Below are positions 18,452 through 21,930 of a DNA stretch of 64,000 nucleotides, one piece after another. The notes beneath the pieces were generated by a model. The model did not search any database. It was not told the origin of the DNA and worked only from the letters and a program-made list of their open reading frames with translations. The stretch's first letter is position 1, and every line of letters begins with the position of its first letter. The DNA is from Rubripirellula sp. (GTDB lineage: Bacteria; Planctomycetota; Planctomycetia; Pirellulales; Pirellulaceae): assembly GCA_012270385.1 (NCBI GenBank), contig JAAXIK010000486.1, positions 52,063 through 116,062 of the forward strand, in the 5' to 3' direction. The position numbers and the translations under genes were made by a program.

Positions 18452-19474
18452 CTAGGGTTTGGGGACGTTTTTACCCAGGTGCTTGTATGCTCTTTCGGTC
18501 GCGATACGTCCTCTCCGTGTTCGGACCATTAATTCGCTGCGAAGCAGAAAAGGCTCTACTTCATCTTCTAGCGTGTCACTGCTCACGTTCATCGTATGCG
18601 CTATGGCTTCCAGTCCAGTTGGTCCGCCGGCAAAGATTCGGATGAGTGTGTCAAGATAATTGCGATCTTGTTTATCTAGCCCTAGCGAATCGATGCCAAT
18701 CATATCCAAAGCTGCTGCGGTAATCTGTTCATCCACGATGCCATTTGTCTTGCTTTGTGCGTAATCTCGAACCCAAAGCAGACGATTATTGGCGAGTCGC
18801 GGTGTGCTGCGACTCCGGTTTGCGATGACCATCGCTGAATCTTTGTCCACTTCGATTTTAAGCTTGACCGAATTCCGGAGGATAATTTCTCTGAGTTCGC
18901 TTTGGGTGTACCAGCCCAAATGTTCACGGATTTGGAATCGATCTCGAAGTGGAGCACTGAGCATTCCTGCTCGCGTGGTAGCACCAATCAGAGTGAAGGG
19001 TTGTATTTCATAGTTAAGTGTTCGAGCATTGACTCCCTCACCCAGAACGATGTCGATCCTAAAATCTTCCATCGCTGTGTATAGGTATTCTTCCACAGAT
19101 TTGGGGACACGATGAATTTCGTCGATGAACAGAACGCTACCTTCAGACAGGTTTGTCAAGTACGGCAGAAGATCTTTGGGAGCCTTGAGTCCCGCACCAT
19201 TTGCCATTTGAACCGTCGTTCCCATTTCCGCAGGAATCACAGTAGCAAATGTGGTTTTGCCAAGCCCCGGGGGTCCATCAAATAAAAGGTGTCCCAGGGG
19301 TTCACCCCTCTGCTGTGCCGCTTCGATTGCAATTCGTAGACGTTCAATCACATCCTGCTGGCCGACCATTTCATCCATGAGTTTAGGACGGAGTGAATGG
19401 TCTTGTTCGGTTGGGATGCTTTCTGTTTGGGCGGTCTCAGGATTCGATTGCTGATAGACTGCTTCTCTGGCCAT
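18452..19474 (-). CDS. ruvB: Holliday junction branch migration helicase RuvB
   Basis: LRPKLMDEMVGQQDVIERL, FDGPPGLGKTTFA, FIDEIHR, GATTRAGMLSAPLRDRFQI. Confidence 0.97.
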   Translation of the reverse strand: MAREAVYQQSNPETAQTESIPTEQDHSLRPKLMDEMVGQQDVIERLRIAIEAAQQRGEPLGHLLFDGPPGLGKTTFATVIPAEMGTTVQMANGAGLKAPKDLLPYLTNLSEGSVLFIDEIHRVPKSVEEYLYTAMEDFRIDIVLGEGVNARTLNYEIQPFTLIGATTRAGMLSAPLRDRFQIREHLGWYTQSELREIILRNSVKLKIEVDKDSAMVIANRSRSTPRLANNRLLWVRDYAQSKTNGIVDEQITAAALDMIGIDSLGLDKQDRNYLDTLIRIFAGGPTGLEAIAHTMNVSSDTLEDEVEPFLLRSELMVRTRRGRIATERAYKHLGKNVPKP

Positions 19475-19784: not shown

Positions 19785-21146
19785 ATGCAAGATACGCAAT
19801 CAGCAAGATCTGCTCACTGGCACGGTTTTACTCAAATGGCCCATTATGATCCGCTGGTGATCAATCGAGCCGAGGGTGCATGGTTAACCACTGCCGATGG
19901 CAGGCAGTTGCTCGATGGGGTCGCGAGTCTATGGTGTAACGTTCATGGACATGCGAGGCAGGAGATCAATGAGGCGATAAAGGAACAGTTGAGTCGGGTT
20001 GCCCACGTAACAACGCTCGGTATGTCCTGTGACACAACAGAATCTTTGGCGGATGAGTTGGCAAAACGGACACCCGGTGATCTGTCCCATGTCTTTTTCA
20101 GTAGTGATGGGTCATCTGCCGTCGAGGCTGCCATCAAAATGGCATTTCAGTTTTGGCAGCAGAGGGCCCAACCCATGGTTCAGAAAACCACGTAACAGGC
20201 CCTCAAGCTTCCTTATAACGGAGACCCAACTGGTGCGGTTTCACTCGGTGGGATCGAGTATTTTCATCAACTTTTTTCTCCGATACTCTTTTCTCCTATT
20301 CGGGGACCCCTGCCCTGCACTTACCGATTGCCTCGGGATGTCGACATTGAGGGAGCTGCTGAGTATTACCTCTCACAAATGGAAGCTCTCTTGATCGAGC
20401 ACCATGAGGAACTGGCAGCAGTTGTTATGGAACCGCTTGTTCAAGGTGCTGCGGGAATGATTACCCACCCAAAAGGATTTCTTCGGGGGGTCAGGGCGTT
20501 ATGCGATCGATATGACGTTCTCTTGGTCTGTGACGAAGTGGCTACAGGATTCGGTCGAACAGGAACCATGTTTGCCTGTGAACAAGAAGATGTAACGCCA
20601 GATATCCTATGCCTCGGAAAAGGATTGACAGGTGGTTATCTTCCAATGGCTGCGACGATAGCGGTCCCCAAAGTATACGAAGCGTTCTTGGCTCCAGTGG
20701 AGAGCTCTAAACAGTTCTTCCACGGACACACCTTTGCGGGTAACCCTCTCGCTGCTGCTGCGGCGTTGGCGTCCCTAGATCTTTTTGATCAAGAACAACC
20801 GGTACTTAGCGTGCCAACGAAGGGGAACTATTTGCGAAATCGCTTCAGAGCTCTAAATGATCATCCTCATGTGGGCTGTGTGCGAGGCCGAGGACTCATG
20901 TTTGGGATTGAGTTGGTGCAGGATTCCGAATCAAAGCAACCGCTCGATCCTGCTCTACTGCTGGGTAGGAAGATTTGTCAGCTGGCCACCGACCGAGGAG
21001 TCTGGATTCGGCCCCTCGGTGATGTGATTGTCCTGATGCCACCACTCTCTATCAATCAATCTGAACTTGCGATTCTAGCTGATGTCGTTATCGAGAGTAT
21101 CGAAGAGGTGGCCTCGGGTCTGGCAAGCAGGAGTTCCTGCGGGTAA
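19785..21146 (+). pseudogene. bioA: Adenosylmethionine-8-amino-7-oxononanoate aminotransferase (BioA-like), interrupted by in-frame TAA at 20193
   Basis: ORFs 19785..20195 and 20328..21146 share a frame. Read through the TAA it continues QALKLPYNGDPTGAVSLGGIEYFHQLFSPILF...; PLP-Lys motif LCLGKGLTGGYLPMAAT is intact. Confidence 0.75.
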
Positions 21147-21285: not shown

Positions 21286-21930
21286 TTGGGGGACTCGATG
21301 AAACCACCACATGAGGATTCGAGTTCAGCTTCTAGCTCCGAGATTTCAGATGAGGCTACCCCATGGTCTGGAACACCTATTGATACGAATGATCCTGCTC
21401 TAGTCGCAAAGTATGAGTCTTATCTTCGCATGCTTGCAAGGACAAAGATGCGTCAAGCTTATCAGGCTAAAATGGGTGCATCGGATGTAGTTCAGCAAGC
21501 AATGTTACAAGCTGTTCAAGCCTTCGAGCAATTTCGAGGGCAAACGGAAGAGGAATTCATGGCATGGCTGAGACAGATTTTAGCCAGACATCTCTGTCAT
21601 GTTGATCGTGATTTGCATCGTGACAAAAGAGATATAAGACGCGAGCAATCCATGGAGCAGCAGCTGGCTGCTTCCTCAATGCGAATCCGGAATCTTTTGG
21701 CGGGGGATGGTCCTACTCCCAGTCAGAATGTGATGCTTGGTGAGCATGTGATGAGGCTCGCTGAGGCAATAGACCGACTTCCAGAATCTCAGGGGGAAGC
21801 TATCCGCCTGCATTACATCGAGGGCTTGAAATTGAGCGAGGTTGCAGAAAAATTGGATAAGACCGCTGGTTCGATTGCAGGTCTAATGCACAGAGGAATG
21901 AAGACACTGCGAGAACAGTTGGGTCAATGA
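21286..21930 (+). CDS. Sigma-70 family (ECF, planctomycete type) RNA polymerase sigma factor
   Basis: ASDVVQQAMLQAVQAFEQFRGQTEEEFMAWLRQIL; region 4 'LPESQGEAIRLHYIEGLKLSEVAEKLDKTAGSIAGLMHRGMKTLRE'. ATG at 21298 also possible. Confidence 0.88.
   Translation: MGDSMKPPHEDSSSASSSEISDEATPWSGTPIDTNDPALVAKYESYLRMLARTKMRQAYQAKMGASDVVQQAMLQAVQAFEQFRGQTEEEFMAWLRQILARHLCHVDRDLHRDKRDIRREQSMEQQLAASSMRIRNLLAGDGPTPSQNVMLGEHVMRLAEAIDRLPESQGEAIRLHYIEGLKLSEVAEKLDKTAGSIAGLMHRGMKTLREQLGQ

Follow-up and report, generated by a model that had tools for sequence, protein, structure and literature searches.

An in-frame stop in the bioA-like gene of a Rubripirellula-like draft genome is probably part of a local burst of miscalled bases

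A single stop codon within a bioA-like gene raises the question of whether a planctomycete is losing biotin synthesis, reads through the stop or carries an error in its published sequence. The sequence-only reading of the locus had offered all three as options. The window, the whole stretch of 64,000 nucleotides that was analysed, comes from contig 431 (116 kb) in a draft genome with 553 contigs, 5.1 Mb and 89.9% completeness. The draft belongs to a Rubripirellula-like planctomycete and, to judge by this fragmentation and completeness, was probably binned from a metagenome. Bins and isolates of Rubripirellula are closest to it, and their BioA sequences are at most 75% identical to its own.

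One bioA-like frame with one stop

The features of the locus in the window are:

18452-19474, minus strand: ruvB-like gene, an intact neighbour named by sequence resemblance; gene order kept in relatives
19785-21146, plus strand: bioA-like class-III aminotransferase gene, one frame with one TAA (from the open reading frames and from TIGR00508, 488 bits when read through)
20190..20228, plus strand: radical changes found in this genome only, in an alignment with 22 relatives: K136T, stop at 137, L138Q, A143P, H145N and T148P
20193-20195, plus strand: in-frame TAA, at a site occupied in relatives by Tyr (TAT/TAC) or Phe
20196-21146, plus strand: 3' part of bioA, conserved past the burst as in an intact gene
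21286-21930, plus strand: sigma-factor-like gene, an intact neighbour named by sequence resemblance; gene order kept in relatives

The bioA frame is not open throughout, as it meets a TAA at 20193. The first open reading frame (19785-20195, 136 amino acids) and the downstream one, in which possible internal starts are present, lie in the same frame with this TAA alone between them, as the sequence-only reading had described; the normal end of the gene is the TAA at 21144-21146. The assignment to a BioA-like class-III aminotransferase is also borne out. Translated through the stop, the product scores 488.4 bits against the TIGR00508 model of BioA (8-amino-7-oxononanoate aminotransferase; curated cut-off 405) and resembles the family over its full length, matching the whole model. 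On their own the halves reach 145 and 331 bits, and only the read-through sequence passes the cut-off. It is 75% identical to the BioA of the nearest congener, for which the best-matching solved structure is 3dod.

What separates the window gene from the BioA family is the TAA together with an AYHGDT segment that has lost conserved residues, both in this assembly only. Within the genus, bioA carries no stop in any of the 21 other genomes, and absence of an interruption from all close relatives is the pattern expected of a spurious pseudogene. Among more distant relatives, a few of the matches listed carry one stop, at 52% identity or less. Upstream of bioA, on the opposite strand, lie glutamyl-tRNA synthetase-like and ruvB-like genes, and downstream lies the sigma-factor-like gene. 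These neighbours are open and their order is conserved in sister genomes.

A compact burst of changes at conserved residues

The stop has company. In the alignment with 22 relatives, which formed the comparison set for bioA residues, five more strictly or nearly strictly conserved residues are altered beside it within 39 bases (20190-20228). Position 136 is T in the window and K, R, Q or N in relatives, and position 137, the stop in the window, is Y or F in them. At 136-138 the four nearest genomes have K-Y-L, with AYHGDTT farther along, where the window has T-stop-Q and then PYNGDPT. The replacement of AYHGDT by PYNGDP, which had been remarked on from the letters alone, is confirmed by this alignment; in AYHGDT, the A, H and T do not vary among the 22 other aligned sequences.

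The further claim that the unusual residues group near the stop between conserved flanks also holds. The window bioA breaks 6 of the 180 columns that are invariant in all other sequences, and four of the six fall within 14 columns (permutation p = 0.0024, the stop itself not being counted). Of the other 22 sequences, 21 break 0-4 such columns and one breaks 6, none having more than 2 within 14 columns; their breaks are rare, mostly conservative and scattered. Outside 20190-20228, bioA diverges like an intact gene, with no relaxation or long decay visible. The burst is specific to this genome, compact and located at strictly conserved residues, in a gene whose remainder is normal. Counting lineage-specific residue clusters was rejected as a marker, being unspecific, with similar or higher counts in other genomes; what singles out bioA is how radical its changes are at deeply conserved sites, not the number of clusters.

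All six base changes behind the burst are transversions. Since 66% of the nonsynonymous single-base differences elsewhere on the contig are transversions, this observation by itself weighs little. A transversion-only error signature was discarded in view of that background and of the other bursts in the draft, among which the base-change spectrum varies with no one error signature common to all. No DNA hairpin was found at the burst site (z = 0.83).

Stops and bursts in unrelated genes

Similar bursts or stops break unrelated genes in the draft, and sister genomes almost never show them. The interrupted genes include:

L003, 1684-1686, contig C98: lysine-aminotransferase-like gene broken by an in-frame TAA; the Met/Ile that precedes the stop by two codons is lost
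L060, near 3565 of contig C431: recQ-like gene on the same contig, outside the window, with an in-frame TGA; DEAH reads EDAR amid dense changes
L188, near 12274 of contig C239: conserved gene with a TAA; GGG changed to VVV a few codons downstream
Contig C203: gene with an in-frame TAG
L194, 3059-3802, contig C368: PSD1 gene with a group of three TAA in a 12-base span

The TAA of the lysine-aminotransferase-like gene is missing in 14 congeners. On contig 431, bioA and the recQ-like gene are the only clearly broken ones among comparable genes. Among the matches listed for the draft (rows counted by eye), interrupted genes number 3 among about 39 sulfatases and 2 among about 44 PSD1 genes. Pooled, this makes 5 of about 83, whereas the sisters have 0 of about 220, again among the matches listed (Fisher p = 0.0014), and on these sulfatase and PSD1 counts the draft has a genome-wide excess of internal stops. 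A direct comparison of two genomes, with stops in 4 of 111 genes of the draft and in 1 of 113 of the other, points in the same direction and is not significant alone (p = 0.21). The sole interior stop of the comparison genome (G015, contig C11, 42503-43594) is followed directly by a Met, so it may mark a later start.

Low-quality reads have been reported chiefly to add spurious internal stops, and an excess of such stops over close relatives to mark poor assemblies (PMC11017572). The draft resembles the assembly-made pseudogenes described there in that its stops lack counterparts in close relatives and it has an internal-stop excess. It differs in that several stops here are accompanied by dense local changes in adjacent codons. 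Radical changes within a few dozen bases of stops, in otherwise conserved genes, are not what ordinary decay would leave. Bursts of miscalled bases can produce both stops and clustered radical changes, and for this reason an error in the consensus is favoured.

We propose that the bioA stop and the changes around it are probably a local burst of miscalled bases in the draft consensus. The compact burst, and the unrelated genes with similar bursts or stops, make local sequence or assembly error the best supported of the three options raised at the outset. A short run of wrong bases would occupy 20190-20228, one of them yielding the TAA, and the organism's own bioA would most likely be ordinary and intact. 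The fragmented state of the draft is in keeping with this proposal. Weighing against it are the varied base-change spectrum of the bursts, the lack of significance in the two-genome comparison, and the length of contig 431, on which so few of the comparable genes are clearly broken. The step from the burst to a read error is one that we infer from the pattern of changes. Confusion between the A/C and G/T channels, described for Illumina sequencing (PMC2745764), would, at a guess, suit some of the changes but not all.

Competing explanations and biotin synthesis

The strongest competitor is a real and very recent pseudogene, in which one clustered mutational event (for example error-prone repair or a short template switch) would have struck bioA and left the organism reliant on an outside supply of biotin or of a late precursor. 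A BioA cut by this stop and lacking these conserved residues would be inactive, a second bioA was not found in the draft, and bioD (L168, contig C496) is interrupted by a TGA in frame, whereas three sister genomes yielded open copies. A 10-base direct repeat, CCACGTAACA, occurs in bioA at 20003-20012 and at 20188-20197, its second copy spanning three of the six changed bases. However, the match is near chance (p between about 0.04 and 0.11, judged from control segments) and covers half of the changes, and a template switch from nearby repeats was rejected as unconvincing. Decay of the pathway would be expected to centre its damage on biotin genes, but genes unrelated to biotin also carry stops. 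Taken with these, the TGA in bioD fits the same genome-wide stop excess. Early pseudogenisation with auxotrophy keeps some chance, though we consider it unlikely, and it is not indicated by the undecayed remainder of bioA or by bioB and the best bioF homologue, which are open in the draft. With these genes open and the bioD stop in line with the general excess, biotin auxotrophy cannot be inferred.

In each of the five Rubripirellula-like genomes tested (L160-L164), the best bioF homologue misses the curated bioF cut-off, narrowly or by a wider margin.

The bursts might instead be real across the genome, in a lineage whose localised patches of hypermutation break conserved genes, bioA and bioD included, and leave a biotin auxotroph; this we hold to be very improbable. 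It is harder still to credit two half-proteins that each function, or deliberate diversification of the segment, whether through hypermutation of the retroelement type or through gene conversion. The downstream frame does offer possible starts, but each half spans only part of the BioA fold, a split gene occurs in 0 of 21 congeners, and a search of the draft found no other copy of the 221-base segment to act as a template. Recoding or readthrough of the TAA to give full-length BioA, an option suggested by a frame that runs on with both halves recognisable as BioA, is least credible of all and went unsupported, because none of the 21 congeners shares the stop, TAA is an ordinary terminator that closes 8 of the 32 long open reading frames in the window, and the burst alters adjacent conserved residues that readthrough would not restore.

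With consensus error as the preferred account, the locus calls for caution: one broken gene in a draft genome is no basis for claiming vitamin auxotrophy or recoding. The problem is quickly exposed by a control that takes large gene families and sets their internal stops, and the radical changes near them, against those of sister genomes.
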